From NCBI GenBank assembly GCA_016191335.1, contig JACPOW010000018.1:1-64000 (forward strand): a stretch of 64,000 nucleotides of DNA, given 5' to 3'. Of this stretch, positions 40,207 to 47,633 are shown one piece after another. The notes below the pieces were generated by a model. It saw only the letters and a program-made list of their open reading frames with translations, was not told the DNA's origin and did not search any database. Every line of letters begins with the position of its first letter. Positions within the stretch are counted from its first letter, which is position 1. Position numbers and translations under genes: made by a program. This DNA is from Elusimicrobiota bacterium (lineage in GTDB: Bacteria; Elusimicrobiota; Elusimicrobia; UBA1565; UBA9628).

Positions 40207-40300
40207 ATGCCCGACCGTCGCGGACCCGTTCGACCCAAACTCCCCTGGGGCCGTCGCGCATAGAATATTGACCGTGATCAATTTTTCAGGGGTTTATCGA

Positions 40301-43108
40301 ATGAAAATCCGTCTTTCCCGCGTCATCGCCTCCGTTCTCGTCGCCGCCCTCGTCCTCGGCGCGCCCGGCTCGCAGGCCTGGGGCCAAGTCGCCGCGTCGG
40401 CCCGCGCCGGATCGGCCGCCGGCATCAAGGGACCCGTCCTGTCGCTCACCCCCGCCGCCGGCTCCTTCACGGCCCCCGCTCTGACCTTGTCCGCGCCCTC
40501 GCTCGCCGTCCCGACCCTCGCTCCGGCGCCGGCGGCCTTGGTCGCCGTGACGCCCGTCGCGGCAAAGCCCGTCGCCGTGAAAGCCGCGGTGCCCGCCGAG
40601 CTCATCCCCGCGCTCGACGCCGCCCGTCCCGCCGCGCCCGCCGCCGGCGACAAGAACGACGGGCCGATGGGCCGCCTCGCCTCTTTGTTCGACGGCCTGA
40701 AGGCCCGCCGCCCAGCGGTCGACGCGGTCGACGCCGGCTCCCCGAGCGACGCGCCGCGCGGCCCCGAGCTCGGCCGCCCCCAGCCCGCCCGCTCCGCGCT
40801 CGCCTCATCGAAGCGCCCCGCGCACAAACCCTTCGTCCCCGCGACGCGAGTCGTCGCCGCGATGGAGAAGCTCCTCGAGACCGACCCCGCGGCCGCGCTG
40901 AAGTCCGCCTCAGCCGCGATCGTCGACGAGAAGGAGCGCCGCTCCGAGGTGAAGATCGGCGCGCAGCGCATACTCGACGCCCTGCCCATCGCGAAGACCC
41001 TCACGCACTACCTCGACCTGCTCACCCTCGCCTCCCGCCCCGGCGTCCAGACCTCGAAGGAGCTCGGCATCGACCCCTGGTGGTATCTCCAGCGCACCGC
41101 GCTCAAGCGCCTCGCCCGCGAGGCCGATTTCCTGAAGCCCGGCTCGCCCGCGCTGGTCGACCTGCTCAAGACGGCCTACAAGGACCGCAACGCCTCGGTG
41201 CGCCTCGCCGCCGCCGACGCCCTGACCGCGCTCGGAGCGGACCCGGGCCCCGAGGTCAGCTACGAGCCCGCCCGCACCGCCCCGGCTCCGGTCATGACGC
41301 CCGCCCCGGCCCCCTCCGCGCCGCAGGCTCCGAAGAAGAAAGGCTCGTGGCTGCCGATGATCATCCTCTTCTCCGCGCTCGCCGGCTGGTGGGCGTTCAG
41401 CAACAACGCGCCCTCGACCCGGCCCCCCGCGAACCCGCCCGCGATCTCGCAGACGATCACCGCCCCGGACTCGGTCAAGGCTCCGGCCGCGGCCGACTCC
41501 GTCAAGGCGGACCCGAAGGACGCGGCCCTCGAGCAGATCGCCCGCGACACCAAGCGGACCGCCGACGCGGCGGAGCGCTCGGCGAAGGCCGCCGAGGAGA
41601 TGGCCAAGCCCAAGGGCACCAGCATGGGCTCCATCCTGATGATGCTCGCGATGGCGATCCTGCCCATCTTCCTGCTCGTCTGGCTCATGAAGAAGATGAT
41701 GGGCGGCGGCGGCGGCGCGGCCGGCGGCATCAACACCAAGCCCAAGATGGACCTCGAGAAGCCGACGGCGCGCTTCGACGACGTGGCCGGCATCGACGAG
41801 AGCCTCGTCGAGGTCCAGGAGATCATCGATTTCCTGCGCGAGCCCGCCCGCTTCAAGAAGCTCGGCGCGCGCATGCCCAAGGGCATCCTGATGGAAGGCC
41901 CTCCCGGCACCGGCAAGACCTTGCTCGCCCGGGCGCTCGCCGGCGAGACCTCGGCGACCTTCATCTCGATCTCCGGCTCCGACTTCGTCGAGCTGTACGT
42001 CGGCATGGGCGCGCGCCGCGTGCGCGAGCTGTTCGAGACCGCGCGCCAGAACGCGCCGGCCATCATCTTCATCGACGAGATCGACGCGGTCGGCAAGAAG
42101 CGCGGCGACGGCGGCCCCGGCAGCGGGAGCAACGACGAGCGCGAGCAGACGATCAACCAGATCCTCAAGGAGATGGACGGCTTCGACAACTCCTCCGGCG
42201 TCCTCGTCGTCGCCGCGACCAACCGCGCCGACACCCTCGACGCGGCGCTGACGCGCCCCGGCCGCTTCGACCGCAAGATCCACGTCGGCCTGCCCGAGGC
42301 CATGGGCCGCGAGGCGATCCTGGCCCTGCACGCGCGGAAGGCGCGCCTGGCCGCCGAGGTGGACCTGCGCCTGATCGCCCGCCGCACCGCGGGGCTCTCC
42401 GGCGCGTTCCTCGAGAACGTGATCAACGAGGCGGCCCTGCTCGCCGCCCGCCGCGGGGCGGACTCCATCAACGGCGCCGACATCGACGAGGCCGTGGACC
42501 GCGCCACGATCGGCGGCAAGCGCTCCCTGCGCCTGTCCGAGCCGCTCAAGCGCCGCATCGCGGCGCACGAGGCGGGCCACGTGCTGGCCAACCTGCTCAA
42601 CGAGAACGCCGAGGTGCGCGTGCCCGTCAACAAGGTCACCATCATGCCCCACGGCTCGGGCGCGCTCGGCTTCGCCGAGTCCGGCAGCGAGGAAGGCGAC
42701 AAGTACCTGTACACCCGCGCCGAGCTCGAGGCGCGCCTCGACACCGCCCTCGGCGGCCTCGTCGCCGAGAAGATCTTCTACGGCGAGTGGTCCACCGGCC
42801 CCGGCTCGGACCTCGAGTCGGCGACGCGCGTGGCGCGGGCGATGGTCCAGCAGCTCGGGATGAGCGAGGAGATGGGCCTCGCGCAGACCGCCCCGAACCA
42901 GTACGGCCAGAGCGCCTTCGGCGGCGAGGCCGACGCGAAGGCCCTCGTCGAGGTCAACAAGCTGCTCAAGGCGTCCATGGAGCGGACCGAGGCGCGCCTG
43001 CGCGCCGGGGCGGAGAAGCACAAGGCGATGATCGAGGCCTTGATGGTCAAGGAGACGCTCTCCGCCGACGAGATCGAGGCCATCGCGCACCCGAAACCCA
43101 AGCGTTAA
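40301..43108 (+). CDS. ftsH: FtsH-type AAA+ membrane metalloprotease with large exported N-terminal extension
   Basis: The 935-residue protein carries an FtsH core in residues 490-930: Walker A GPPGTGKT at about 534-541, Walker [12 protein letters not shown], the SRH motif [12 protein letters not shown], zinc motif HEAGH at 756-760 and the third ligand in [16 protein letters not shown]. FtsH degrades membrane and regulatory proteins. Before the core are a signal peptide, an Ala/Pro-rich stretch, a helical repeat-like domain (about 180-320), transmembrane helices near 348-366 and 445-463, and a coiled coil between. The usual FtsH periplasmic domain is about 80 residues, so this extension is atypical. 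ATG 40301 has CAGGGG upstream. Confidence 0.88.
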
Positions 43109-44090: not shown

Positions 44091-44126
44091 GACGCGCTCA
44101 TTTTAGCAAATTGAAGATTCAGCGCC

Positions 44127-44155
44127 TTGACTCGCGGCGGTCTTTACCCTACTCT
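44127..44155 (+). promoter_or_regulatory. Promoter of the secreted toxin-like gene (leaderless type)
   Basis: TTGACT (44127-44132), a 17-base spacer and TACTCT (44150-44155) are followed by 6 bases and ATG 44162. Transcription should start at the ATG; no ribosome site is present. Confidence 0.65.
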
Positions 44156-44161
44156 TTGGCA

Positions 44162-46900
44162 ATGCGGGCCCTACGCGTCCTCTTGGCGCTCCTCCTTGCC
44201 GCCGGTCCCGCCGAAGCCCAGCCCGTCGTCGACCTGCTCACCCGTTTCACCGTCCCCGCGGACGAGACCGCCGCATCTGCTCCCGAGGTGGACTCGCCCC
44301 AGGGTTCGGGAAAGAAGCTGGCCGAGCTCGAAGCGAACCTCGTATTAGTCGCCGAGGGACTGGAGGCCTTCGCCCACCTACAGGACGCCGACAAGTCCCT
44401 TCGCGCGGCCAGGCCCCGCCTTCCCGAACAGATCGCGCCTTTCTTCCGGGATCGCGCCGCGGCCCTCGACTCTCTTTACCGCACCTTGGCCGTGGTGGAC
44501 TACACATGGGCTCTGCGCTTCCCCGAGCCGCCCTGCGCCCCGGCGGACCGGCGCGCCGCATTGCTGCGCTCAAGCGACGGTCTATTCCTCGACCCGGTGT
44601 CAGGCCGGACGTCGTCATGGATGGAGGCGCTTCTGGGGCCCAACGCCAAGGGCGAGAACCTCGAGTCCGCCTTGGATCGGGCCTCCGCTTCCGCTGCTCC
44701 CAGTCAAGCCGACTACGCCCGTCTGCGGGCCCGGCAGAAGCTCATCACGCTCGCCCTCTCGTCGGAGAGCGCCGAGGGAAAGGCCCGGGCCAAGCTCTAC
44801 TGCCAGCGCGCCGAGATCCGCGTCGCACTGGCCTCGGCCAACCGGACTGCGGGTCCCGTTCTCGCGGCGCGCTCCTCCGGCGAAGGGGTCTCCCGACGAG
44901 GGATCGTCATCGTGGCGGGCACAAACGACGGGAATCTCGAGGTCCGCGGCGCCGGGGCCATCATCGATACCCCGTCCGGAGTCCGGGTCCTGACCGACCG
45001 CCGCCTGGGCGGCGGGCAGCTGGCGGCGTTGGTCGAGGGCAAATCAGCCCCAGTCTCGTTAAGCGTCGAACGAGAGGACGAGTCCTCCGGGCTGCTTCTT
45101 CTTCGGCCGGAGGGAGACGTCGGCGAGGCGACGGCGTGGTCCGAAGCCGCGCCGAAAAAAGGCGACCTGGTTTCCGTCGTTGCTCATTCCGAGAGATTGG
45201 GCGCGTGGACGAGAAGCCAGGGCCTGGTCACGAGCGCGGCGGCGGCGCAGTTCCAGGCCGATGCGATCGCCGACGCCTCGATGACCGGCGGCGGGGTTTT
45301 CGACGAGGAAGGTCGTCTGGCGGGTCTTCTCGTTCTGCGCCCGGCCGCGGGCGGACGGGGCGACTGGCCGGCCGCCGTGCCAGCGCCCGCGCTGCGTGCC
45401 TGGGCCTCGGGAGGTCCGGCGCCCGAGGCCGGGCCCGCGTCGCTCGAGGACGCGGGAACCACCAAGATCCTGACCGCCTCTCGCCCGCTGCTCGACAGCC
45501 TCCCCGGCGCCCAGTCCACGGAAGCCCGCCGCGCCGACGACATCTTCACGCCCACGCCTTGGGGGACCGTCCGCGGCCGATGCATGGCGAACTGCGAGAT
45601 CGACGACGGCGCCCCCTCCTCGGGTTACGGCGGCGGCGACGGGAGCCGGGAACTCGGCGAGGCGTTGGGAAAACTGGCGGCCGTCGGGATGCAGGCACTG
45701 ATATTCAAAGGCATCCCCGCCTTGTTCCGCGGCATAGGCTCCCTGTTCAAGCGCAAGCCGCTAGTTCAGGTCCAGGAGCCCGTTCCTTCCACGCCGGTCC
45801 CGCTTATCGTCGAGAAGAAGCCGGAGCCGCCGAAGCCAGACATCAAATGCGAGCTCAAGCCGGTCGATGTACCCGCGTCCGTGCGCGCCGAGAAGGCGGT
45901 CGTGAAGGTCCAGTTGTCCTGCGTGGACCTCAATGGCATCGAGAAGAACATCGACGTCTCCAACCAGGAGGTCTCGTTCGACCTTCGATGGGAAGGCCAA
46001 GCGGCGCAATACGAGAACATCGAAGCTGTAACCGATGCGAACGGAATCGCCTCGTTCGTTTTCCGTGTAGACAACGAGATCACCCGGGCCGAACGCAGCT
46101 TCGAGGATCTGGATCGCTACGATCCGGACAAGCGTGATCAGACGCCGCCCGATGAACAGGATCGCAGCCCCGTTCTACAGAACGCCGGGCGCGGCTTGAT
46201 CGAGACCGGGGATGCGAAGCCCGCCGTTTCCGAGAAAGTATCCAAGCCTTCACCGGGATCTGGGAATCTCAAGTACGCCCTTATCGGCACAGGAATGCGA
46301 GTTCGCATAGTTGCGCGCGGAGCGGCCCGCGCCGCTGTTGTTGTAGGCGCGGTTGCCGGATCATCCGCTGGCACGGCTGGAGCAGGAACCGTCGGCAGCG
46401 GAGCCGCCGGAGTCGGCGCGGGTGGGGCCGTAATCGGCGGCTCGCTGCTTTTACCCCTCACCGGGCTCGTCGCAACGATCGGGATAACCTGGGGTCTCTA
46501 TAAAGCGGTCGAGAAACAGGACAGATTCAATGAGTCGATCGACATGCATCGGGATGAAAAGCCGAAGATGAAAAAGAAAGACAAATACGCACCCGATCCC
46601 GAATGTGAAGATACTGTCGATATTCCCATCCCGGGCGACTGCTCGCAGGAGATGCATCGCCAACTTCAGATTGATGTCGATCTGGAATGCGGGAATCTGG
46701 ATCGATGCGATGCGGAAATGACCTCATGCGACGAGATATCCAACTCCGCCCGTCAATTCGAGAAATGTATCGCAGCAAGAAATCGGATCGACAACCAGTG
46801 CTTCCGTGGAGGCGACAGGAATCACTGCATTCAACTCAAAAGCGTTACCAATGGTCTAATTCGATGCCAGATGCGCGCGAGGGAGCAGAATTGCCCATGA
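44162..46900 (+). CDS. Secreted multidomain protein: degenerate trypsin-like domain and Cys-rich polymorphic-toxin C-terminus
   Basis: The 912-residue protein has a signal peptide (MRALRVLLALLLAAGPAEA) and a helical region to about 200. A trypsin/HtrA-like beta domain at about 245-415 follows, in which the catalytic His (LTDRRL) and Ser (MTGGGVFDEEG) positions are replaced. Next come a Pro-rich segment, an Ig-like domain at about 565-650 (DIKCELKPVDVPASVRAEKAVVKV), a Gly/Ala hydrophobic hairpin at about 715-780, and a Cys-rich end with ECGNLDRCDAEM, CIAARNRIDNQCFRGGDRNH and CQMRAREQNC. That end resembles a polymorphic-toxin domain (Ntox16-like; from memory of the CFxGGDxxH pattern). The next gene overlaps by 4 bases and looks like its immunity protein. 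The 3' 900 bases are AT-richer. Confidence 0.65.
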   Translation: MRALRVLLALLLAAGPAEAQPVVDLLTRFTVPADETAASAPEVDSPQGSGKKLAELEANLVLVAEGLEAFAHLQDADKSLRAARPRLPEQIAPFFRDRAAALDSLYRTLAVVDYTWALRFPEPPCAPADRRAALLRSSDGLFLDPVSGRTSSWMEALLGPNAKGENLESALDRASASAAPSQADYARLRARQKLITLALSSESAEGKARAKLYCQRAEIRVALASANRTAGPVLAARSSGEGVSRRGIVIVAGTNDGNLEVRGAGAIIDTPSGVRVLTDRRLGGGQLAALVEGKSAPVSLSVEREDESSGLLLLRPEGDVGEATAWSEAAPKKGDLVSVVAHSERLGAWTRSQGLVTSAAAAQFQADAIADASMTGGGVFDEEGRLAGLLVLRPAAGGRGDWPAAVPAPALRAWASGGPAPEAGPASLEDAGTTKILTASRPLLDSLPGAQSTEARRADDIFTPTPWGTVRGRCMANCEIDDGAPSSGYGGGDGSRELGEALGKLAAVGMQALIFKGIPALFRGIGSLFKRKPLVQVQEPVPSTPVPLIVEKKPEPPKPDIKCELKPVDVPASVRAEKAVVKVQLSCVDLNGIEKNIDVSNQEVSFDLRWEGQAAQYENIEAVTDANGIASFVFRVDNEITRAERSFEDLDRYDPDKRDQTPPDEQDRSPVLQNAGRGLIETGDAKPAVSEKVSKPSPGSGNLKYALIGTGMRVRIVARGAARAAVVVGAVAGSSAGTAGAGTVGSGAAGVGAGGAVIGGSLLLPLTGLVATIGITWGLYKAVEKQDRFNESIDMHRDEKPKMKKKDKYAPDPECEDTVDIPIPGDCSQEMHRQLQIDVDLECGNLDRCDAEMTSCDEISNSARQFEKCIAARNRIDNQCFRGGDRNHCIQLKSVTNGLIRCQMRAREQNCP

Positions 46901-47499
46901 GCCAAGGGAACGTCAGAATTGCGATAGAGACGGCATTCACCAACGAGCCTTTGCCGGACGCCAACCAACGAATCTCGATTCAAGGGGTGGAAGGCGATCG
47001 ACTGTCGAACGCGCTTACTGGCCGCTCCTGGAAAGACCTTACGTTGTCCGACCTCAAGGTCGTTCCCGGGAGCGTGTTGCTTCTGACCCCCGCGGCATTC
47101 AAATATTTTCTACCTGCCTATATACTGGCCTGCACGAACGAATATCGGAAGGCCGGCGTACTCGTCGATTCTCTTATTTCAAGACTCATCGACCCTCGGC
47201 TTGGAAAAATTTCGCTCGATGCCCTCAAGAGCATGAGGACTGACAACGCCAAAGGCATCGCTCCGGATGAGTTGGAAAAGATCAAGCAGATGCTGATCCG
47301 AGAGCAAACCGATTCTGCGCGAATCGAACCTCTGCACGCCAAATATTTATCCGAATTCTCTAAGTTCTCCGATTCTCAACTCGAGGCTGTGATCAAATTC
47401 GTGGATTGGCTGATCGAGGAGCACCCGAATGATGACCTTCTGGGGGACTATAGGCGCGCCCGAATGAGTCTCCAATCATTACGCGGCGATCGCGCCTAA
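46897..47499 (+). CDS. Probable immunity protein (DUF6714-like)
   Basis: The 200-residue protein lacks a signal peptide. It has SWKDLTLSDLKVVPGSVLLL, then TPAAFKYFLPAYILAC and, near the end, FSKFSDSQLEAVIKFVDWL, the order I associate with DUF6714, a family seen beside toxin genes. ATG 46897 overlaps the stop of the secreted toxin-like gene (ATGA). Both the overlap and the low GC shared with the toxin's 3' end suggest that toxin tip and immunity gene arrived together. Cytoplasmic neutralisation of the C-terminal toxin domain is inferred, not shown. Confidence 0.6.
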   Translation: MSQGNVRIAIETAFTNEPLPDANQRISIQGVEGDRLSNALTGRSWKDLTLSDLKVVPGSVLLLTPAAFKYFLPAYILACTNEYRKAGVLVDSLISRLIDPRLGKISLDALKSMRTDNAKGIAPDELEKIKQMLIREQTDSARIEPLHAKYLSEFSKFSDSQLEAVIKFVDWLIEEHPNDDLLGDYRRARMSLQSLRGDRA

Positions 47500-47633
47500 T
47501 ATCATTGAGCAAATTCAACGACAATCGTGTTGAACCGGACTTTGTTTCCAATCCCAACAACTATGGGCGCCCGTAGACGCGCGGTTCCCAAATTAGTCTA
47601 ATCGTTCCGGCGGACTTCATCGCCGGGGAGACA

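Follow-up and report, generated by a model that had tools for sequence, protein, structure and literature searches.

The 64,000-nucleotide window analyzed here (positions 1 to 64,000 of the forward strand of contig JACPOW010000018.1, assembly GCA_016191335.1, from an Elusimicrobiota bacterium) contains, at 44162-47499, a pair of overlapping genes that very probably belongs to a lineage-specific family of polymorphic toxins, built on an HtrA-like pseudoprotease carrier and present in one genus of Elusimicrobiota and its sister genus. The first gene encodes a large, apparently exported protein ending in an Ntox16 toxin domain (hereafter, the tip) and the second a presumed immunity protein of the DUF6714 family. 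The comparative case, which is built on sequences, is strong, and from this starting point we infer export, killing and immunity; in our best reading, the family works in the manner of MafB of Neisseria, but on a different chassis.

The scaffold-toxin gene (44162..46900, + strand, as are the other parts of the unit) is an open reading frame that extends from an ATG at 44162 to a stop codon ending at 46900 and encodes 912 amino acids; the partner gene (46897-47499, 200 amino acids) shares with its end the four bases ATGA, the overlap already recorded in an initial annotation of the window. That annotation had also proposed a signal peptide, and the N-terminus, MRALRVLLALLLAAGPAEA, is indeed signal-peptide-like (residues 1-19, 44162..44218) as read directly from the sequence rather than by a signal-peptide predictor, with a peak 12-residue hydropathy within the first 36 residues of 2.5 versus at most 1.4 across 20 partner proteins. 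There follow a conserved all-helical N-terminal domain delineated by AlphaFold and profile search (residues 20-238, 44219..44875) and an HtrA-like pseudoprotease domain delineated by alignment, modelling and structural matching (residues 232-420, 44855..45421). In the alignment, the last conserved part of the scaffold is the region of a predicted long helix with the conserved FKGIPALFRGIG (residues 495-527, 45644..45742), where the confidence of the model is very low. The annotated Ig-like domain (residues 562-634, 45845..46063), a beta domain that differs between copies, holds up in part: AlphaFold places strands there with middling confidence and Big_1 is weakly matched in scaffold relatives (Pfam, E 0.002-0.013), but no Ig domain exceeded the Pfam cut-off in the window protein. 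Similarly, the hydropathy profile confirms a hydrophobic Gly/Ala-rich stretch ahead of the tip (residues 748-779, 46403..46498), described initially as a hairpin, but such a segment occurs in only seven of the 14 proteins measured, the window protein among them, so that it is not a fixed part of the scaffold and is less secure than was implied. For the protein as a whole, the model is otherwise of low quality (pLDDT 52), and an NCBIfam scan of the scaffold-toxin and partner proteins returned no matches.

The suspected toxin domain at the C-terminus is Ntox16 (Pfam PF15523, residues 824-903, 46631..46870; 2e-14, 54 bits versus a cut-off of 25), a match found also in the search across the phylum, and the conserved R and [DNE]xxH of this family (PMC3482391) are apparent when the tip is aligned with 13 further Ntox16 domains and with the tip of locus L062, which is similar. 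The partner, likened at first to DUF6714, matches this family (PF20461) over the cut-off in two stretches (5.3e-8, 33.4 bits versus 27); in a six-frame search the same match stayed under the cut-off at 21.4 bits. Sequence searches found no solved structure for either the tip or DUF6714. The lower G+C content that had been noticed in the tip and the partner is pronounced, with a G+C fraction of 0.518 in the last 100 residues and 0.527 in the partner versus 0.707 in residues 1-520, and the drop toward tip and partner recurs in all 14 loci measured.

A profile of residues 1-526 (E up to 1e-18) detected the scaffold in eight of 340 genomes of the phylum, namely seven of the 19 genomes of the same genus and one genome of a sister genus. 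A looser limit (E up to 0.001) brings in 63 of 97 relatives as well, almost all of them matched by nothing but the protease part, and the strict limit was adopted for this reason. With a profile built on the N-terminal domain, 24 copies are found in the same eight genomes, together with weak matches in three more (G027 and G033, by eye repeat proteins without a toxin tip, and G105). Within its own genome, the first 113 residues of the window protein match eight copies, half of them at 76-100% identity and the other half at 40-42%. The tip could be read in 17 of the 24 copies; of the remaining seven, four run off their contigs (L009, L013, L063 and G015:C160), two stop a little past the scaffold, close to the end of a contig (L014 and L056), and one is broken beside a run of Ns (L064). 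Repeated scaffolds are expected to break assemblies, and contigs indeed terminate within scaffold genes, so that all tip numbers are lower bounds. The samples comprise 19 copies for the count of catalytic residues, 22 for the scaffold tree and 14 for the table of G+C content and spacing.

The last 110 residues of the 17 readable tips fall into 11 BLASTP classes (10 when a match of 25 residues where the stretch begins is accepted), and thus the conserved scaffold with variable tips anticipated in the initial annotation is what the homologues display. Seven tips match Pfam toxins over the cut-off, from four families: Ntox16 (the window and L011), RNAse_A_bac, the CdiA-type RNase A (L012 and L068), Ntox21 (L066 and L069) and EndoU_bacteria (L067). 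Another tip, that of L057, shares 57% identity with the C-terminal end of a Candidatus Thiodictyon RHS protein; the L057 partner shows no similarity to the immunity protein of that RHS protein. When five of the unnamed classes (L010, L057, L059, L060 and L061, leaving out the VSIHxQ and L062 tips) were compared with PLSDB, no match was found for L010, L060 and L061, L059 yielded one weak match on a Serratia plasmid (34%), and L057 matched the RHS protein.

Exchange of tips is also visible at an orthologous site. At this site, site A, the scaffold lies in three genomes between one and the same pair of genes, PilZ-like and miaA-like (these names, like FtsH, pyrB and 2-oxoacid oxidoreductase, were assigned by eye). 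The upstream protein is 96-99% identical across the three, the downstream protein 78-88% and scaffold residues 1-520 79-90%, versus 19-21% for the last 110 residues, a value within the 19-29% range of the unrelated tips at site B. One of the three tips is RNase A-like, one is VSIHxQ and the remaining one (L061) is of another kind; behind this last tip lies an orphan with 42% identity to the protein that accompanies the RNase A tip in a sister genome; this test for orphan immunity genes covers one site. Site B, where the adjoining gene is 87-95% identical in four genomes, harbors three tip classes. In a tree of 22 scaffolds, in which seven of 19 inner branches reach the support mark of the tool and four rows are long, close scaffolds bear different tips and distant scaffolds bear the same tip. 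Hence, a conserved N-terminal part with exchanged C-terminal toxin domains and an orphan immunity relative nearby, two features of polymorphic toxins, are both found here.

A third such feature is a partner gene placed directly behind the tip and sorting with it. In all 14 loci, a partner frame begins no more than 178 bases after the tip, and in 13 of these it begins within 13 bases or overlaps, where the partner is the next sizeable frame, chosen by hand, and its start the first possible codon, so that the overlaps are upper bounds. Comparison of 20 partner proteins by BLASTP gave four similar pairs, each inside one tip class, along with the orphan that fits the RNase A pair. By hydropathy, none of the partners has a signal-peptide-like start, the most hydrophobic being one of the two candidates behind L010.

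The pairing in the window extends beyond the scaffold. Ntox16 was found at 14 loci in 13 of the 340 genomes of the phylum (12 of them over the cut-off), and DUF6714 lies downstream on the same strand at 11 of these loci, the window counted, including one match under the cut-off (G046) and one with a gene in between (G038). Among ten downstream frames from other genomes, taken from eleven such Ntox16 loci with L076 left out, Pfam recognized DUF6714 over the cut-off in eight, all except L072 and L081. A match of the tip to a toxin profile, varied tips among the relatives and co-occurrence of the downstream gene are thus all found, the opposite of each outcome named at the outset as contrary to the toxin-immunity interpretation. 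In the 2012 survey of polymorphic toxins, the entry for an immunity family beside Ntox16 is a dash (PMC3482391), and our literature search found nothing on DUF6714. Because it repeatedly lies downstream of Ntox16, for which that survey lists no immunity family, DUF6714 is a good candidate for that role. The Ntox16 proteins encoded elsewhere in Elusimicrobiota (L072, L073, L075-L083) resemble the window protein in the Ntox16 tip, mostly followed by DUF6714 and sometimes with a second copy; their size differs, most being small proteins of about 350-390 amino acids with a signal-like start (larger ones being L080, with 466 amino acids, and L076, with at least 600), and profile search revealed no strong scaffold match in their genomes. 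L080 (1459-2859) is a single protein with two tandem Ntox16 domains.

The window locus has the appearance of a discrete insertion. In three of three congeners compared by BLASTN at the region before the pyrB-like gene, the flanks are collinear at 76-91% identity and the whole 3.46-kb unit (44111..47570), comprising promoter-like sequence, scaffold-toxin gene and partner gene, is missing: the stretch from 44111 to a right border at about 47564-47575 is replaced by 6-12 bases. Neither window gene has a tblastn match in eight congener regions before the pyrB-like gene. Terminal repeats were sought, and only short families turned up, none of them seen framing the insert. A relative of the scaffold was absent from IMG/VR, and one of the partner from both IMG/VR and PLSDB, so that a phage or plasmid origin was set aside; assembly chimerism is unlikely because the family occurs in separately deposited metagenome-assembled genomes and in a record labelled as a complete genome, CP096137. 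Given that the missing stretch includes the box upstream of the gene, TTGACT-17-TACTCT (44127..44155), recognized by its spacing across scaffold genes, the unit comes with its own promoter-like sequence. In 11 of the 18 scaffold genes inspected, TTGA[C/T] precedes the start codon by 34-36 bases, a distance that would give leaderless transcripts and suggests that transcripts in this lineage begin at or next to the start codon; the other seven genes start where the upstream frame ends or no more than about 20 bases beyond it. Upstream of the insertion, at 40268-43108, the window has a reading frame that resembles, by eye, an AAA protease of the FtsH type; its N-terminus is signal-like, and a long extension rich in Ala and Pro precedes the usual domains.

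In the protease part of the carrier, Trypsin_2 remains under the Pfam cut-off in the window protein (1.8e-4, 22.7 bits versus 27.6), but among 14 scaffold proteins scanned over that region 11 exceed the cut-off, L060 and L068 being the others below. Residues 232-420 are modelled with the HtrA fold, as the initial annotation had proposed, with a VIA Z of 19.2 to DegP over 176 residues at 3.0 A and likewise about 19 to DegS, in agreement with profile matches to DegS. The His-Asp-Ser triad required of an active HtrA/trypsin-like protease is replaced in the window by Arg, Gly and Thr, respectively, the first and last of these changes having been annotated. Across 19 aligned scaffolds (of the 24 copies), His is lost in 19, Asp in 18 and Ser in 11. 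Of 22 HtrA loci inspected for comparison, one lacks the Ser motif, and the 21 relatives chosen by that motif all retain His and Asp, the only two residues that count as evidence in a set so chosen. Judged by its residues, the domain is catalytically dead, and, in analogy to the proposal made for inactive-transglutaminase toxins, it most likely binds or anchors instead of cutting. Its model also matches the MamO pseudoprotease (Z 17.9, 174 residues, 3.2 A), with weak matches to the MamO profile in two scaffold relatives; MamO, which has its role in the magnetosome, is likewise a degenerate HtrA-fold protein but lacks a toxin tip. Elsewhere, the protein at L054 (3953-6025), on a contig labelled Armatimonadota, has a similar, helical N-terminal domain, an intact HtrA triad and no tip; it is possibly an ancestral active form or the product of a mis-binned contig.

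The N-terminal domain, when modelled alone with AlphaFold, is helical with fair confidence (pLDDT 72.7, pTM 0.77), and 22 of its columns are invariant over nine members. Comparison of the fold with the PDB gave no convincing match (best Foldseek E 2.3, best VIA Z 4.4), which does not imply that the fold is new. Two loci in another Elusimicrobiota genus, L127 (1518-3956) and L128 (823-4053), encode what by eye are signal-bearing repeat proteins, weakly similar to this domain (AYxTLAxLEYRxA) and with no recognizable toxin.

From these parts a scheme of action can be proposed. The carrier, consisting of the family-specific helical domain, the dead HtrA-like domain and an Ig-like spacer, would be exported by the Sec pathway through its signal peptide and would present an exchangeable C-terminal tip, Ntox16 in the window. 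It would then cross the outer membrane or be held there, possibly by a secretin-type route, with the dead protease and the helical domain having a docking or anchoring role and no enzymatic one; the constant N-terminal domain might play the part proposed for MAFB-N and Microscilla-N, the constant N-terminal domains of the survey (PMC3482391). The tip would be delivered into competing, mostly related, cells, the cytosol of which would be its site of action. It is most likely an RNase, as judged from the three further tip families with a name on this chassis, all of which are RNases by name or report, Ntox21 being a reported tRNase (PMC3482391). The DUF6714 protein, predicted to be cytosolic, would bind the Ntox16 tip and protect the producer and its kin.

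The initial annotation remarked on the absence of any signature of Rhs, contact-dependent inhibition (CDI) or type VI secretion system (T6SS) toxins, and this is borne out in the protein and the genome: the carrier has no RHS or TPS/FHA domain, nor a MafB N-terminal domain, Pfam at E up to 1 showing just Ntox16 and Trypsin_2, and the T6SS sheath family TssB, the one T6SS gene family searched, is absent from the genome of the window (94% complete) and from the six other scaffold carriers of the genus. TssB occurs in one of the 19 congeners, G003, which carries no scaffold. Secretin domains are found in all 19, where they may equally belong to type IV pili. No MafA-like neighbor was noticed when neighboring frames were inspected by eye, without a MafA profile.

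Several known systems share parts of this design. MafB proteins of Neisseria are reported to be secreted and toxic and to have specific immunity proteins (PMC4287609, PMC7738311). Similarly to the family described here, the MafB/MafI systems combine a signal peptide, a lineage-specific N-terminal domain and variable C-terminal toxins, EndoU among them, with a downstream immunity gene and several copies per genome (PMC4287609, PMC7738311, PMC3482391); they differ in phylum and in the N-terminal chassis, which here includes the dead HtrA domain and has no match to the MafB domain. Inactive-transglutaminase toxins likewise have a dead protease fold directly behind a signal peptide, sometimes beside Ig domains, and this fold has been proposed to anchor the toxin by binding peptides (PMC3482391), but theirs is papain-like and followed by RHS repeats, whereas here the fold is HtrA/trypsin and no RHS is detected by Pfam. 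With CDI, Rhs and T6SS toxins the family shares tip families, RNAse_A_bac, Ntox21 (the delivery pathways of which are treated in PMC3482391) and EndoU, as well as the one tip common to an RHS protein; it is set apart from them by a carrier without a TPS or RHS domain in a genome without a T6SS sheath gene.

A number of observations weigh against the interpretation of the locus as a toxin-immunity pair on a putative delivery scaffold. No delivery machine or conserved neighboring gene was seen at the loci, and the upstream genes vary by site. Ten of the 17 tips have no Pfam toxin name, counting L058, which is classed as unnamed without a Pfam scan on account of a tip 91% identical to that of L015. 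The partners do not always follow the tips: those of the two Ntox16 copies differ, with DUF6714 in the window and an unrelated family at L011, the partner of which is related to that of L081 (32% identity) and constitutes an alternative partner of Ntox16; the partners behind the VSIHxQ tips of L055 and L015 are likewise unrelated to each other. The two Ntox21 carriers group together in the scaffold tree (92/94), a join flagged as a possible long-branch effect; such a grouping would be compatible with inheritance no less than with exchange. The assemblies show four scaffold genes interrupted or split (L011, L058, L062 and L067), and a fifth, L064, is the one beside the run of Ns, so that part of the copies may be inactive or wrongly assembled; the family has intact copies elsewhere. 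In L014 and L056, the gene ends a short way past the scaffold and no tip can be recognized. To these points is added the selection of the HtrA comparison set by its Ser motif.

The DegS/DegP-like character of the domain, with the MamO pseudoprotease among its matches, could also suit a peptide-binding regulator or envelope stress sensor, in which the dead HtrA domain would bind unfolded envelope proteins, the C-termini would be read-outs or suicide domains inside the producer and the partner would be an antitoxin; the lack of any visible delivery apparatus at the loci is in keeping with this notion. We regard it as improbable, given that the signal peptide would remove an RNase-type tip from the cytosol of the producer, that the tips belong to CDI and RHS-type toxin families, and that tip swapping with orphan partners is commonly a sign of strain-against-strain conflict. 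Effectors directed against eukaryotic hosts or grazers, not bacteria, would similarly have a conserved secreted N-terminus and variable C-termini, RNase folds could act on eukaryotic RNA, and host-directed effectors with a conserved N-terminal domain have been proposed for Amoebophilus (PMC3482391). Against hosts, however, no immunity gene is needed, whereas a partner lies close behind the tip in all 14 loci, with similar partners behind similar tips, and the named tip families are those of antibacterial toxins; this alternative appears very unlikely. The interrupted copies might, finally, be taken to indicate that tips were captured by a drifting pseudoprotease family and are decayed relics of no present function, a view to which we assign the least weight: where the tip is readable, the majority of copies have an open frame of about 840-1000 codons, the N-terminal domain keeps its invariant columns, and the position of the promoter-like box is steady to a base or two in the 11 of 18 genes that have it.

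The favored reading is a polymorphic toxin on a pseudo-HtrA carrier. A wider proposal, that the helical N-terminal domain and the pseudo-HtrA domain constitute a new export or surface-anchoring chassis, using a route apart from CDI, T6SS, the type VII secretion system, Rhs and Maf, and that DUF6714 is the immunity family of Ntox16, is tentative, and we would rate it slightly below an even chance. No description of a carrier of the pseudo-HtrA type appeared in the titles and abstract openings of the literature searched; the survey names elusimicrobia among the carriers of Ntox36 and Imm-Barstar, and the carrier described here is absent from those passages (PMC3482391). Judging from the comparisons above, the system would be a lineage-specific variant of polymorphic toxins, themselves a known type. 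The comparison reveals, at a single orthologous site, a different tip in each of three sister genomes, and the assignment of DUF6714 as the immunity family for Ntox16 is directly testable. Several of the tip classes lack a Pfam name and, together with the gene next to each, are candidate new toxin-immunity pairs. For the Elusimicrobiota, a largely uncultured phylum, the family would add a lineage-specific toxin chassis in which a quality-control protease appears to have been turned into a dead carrier.

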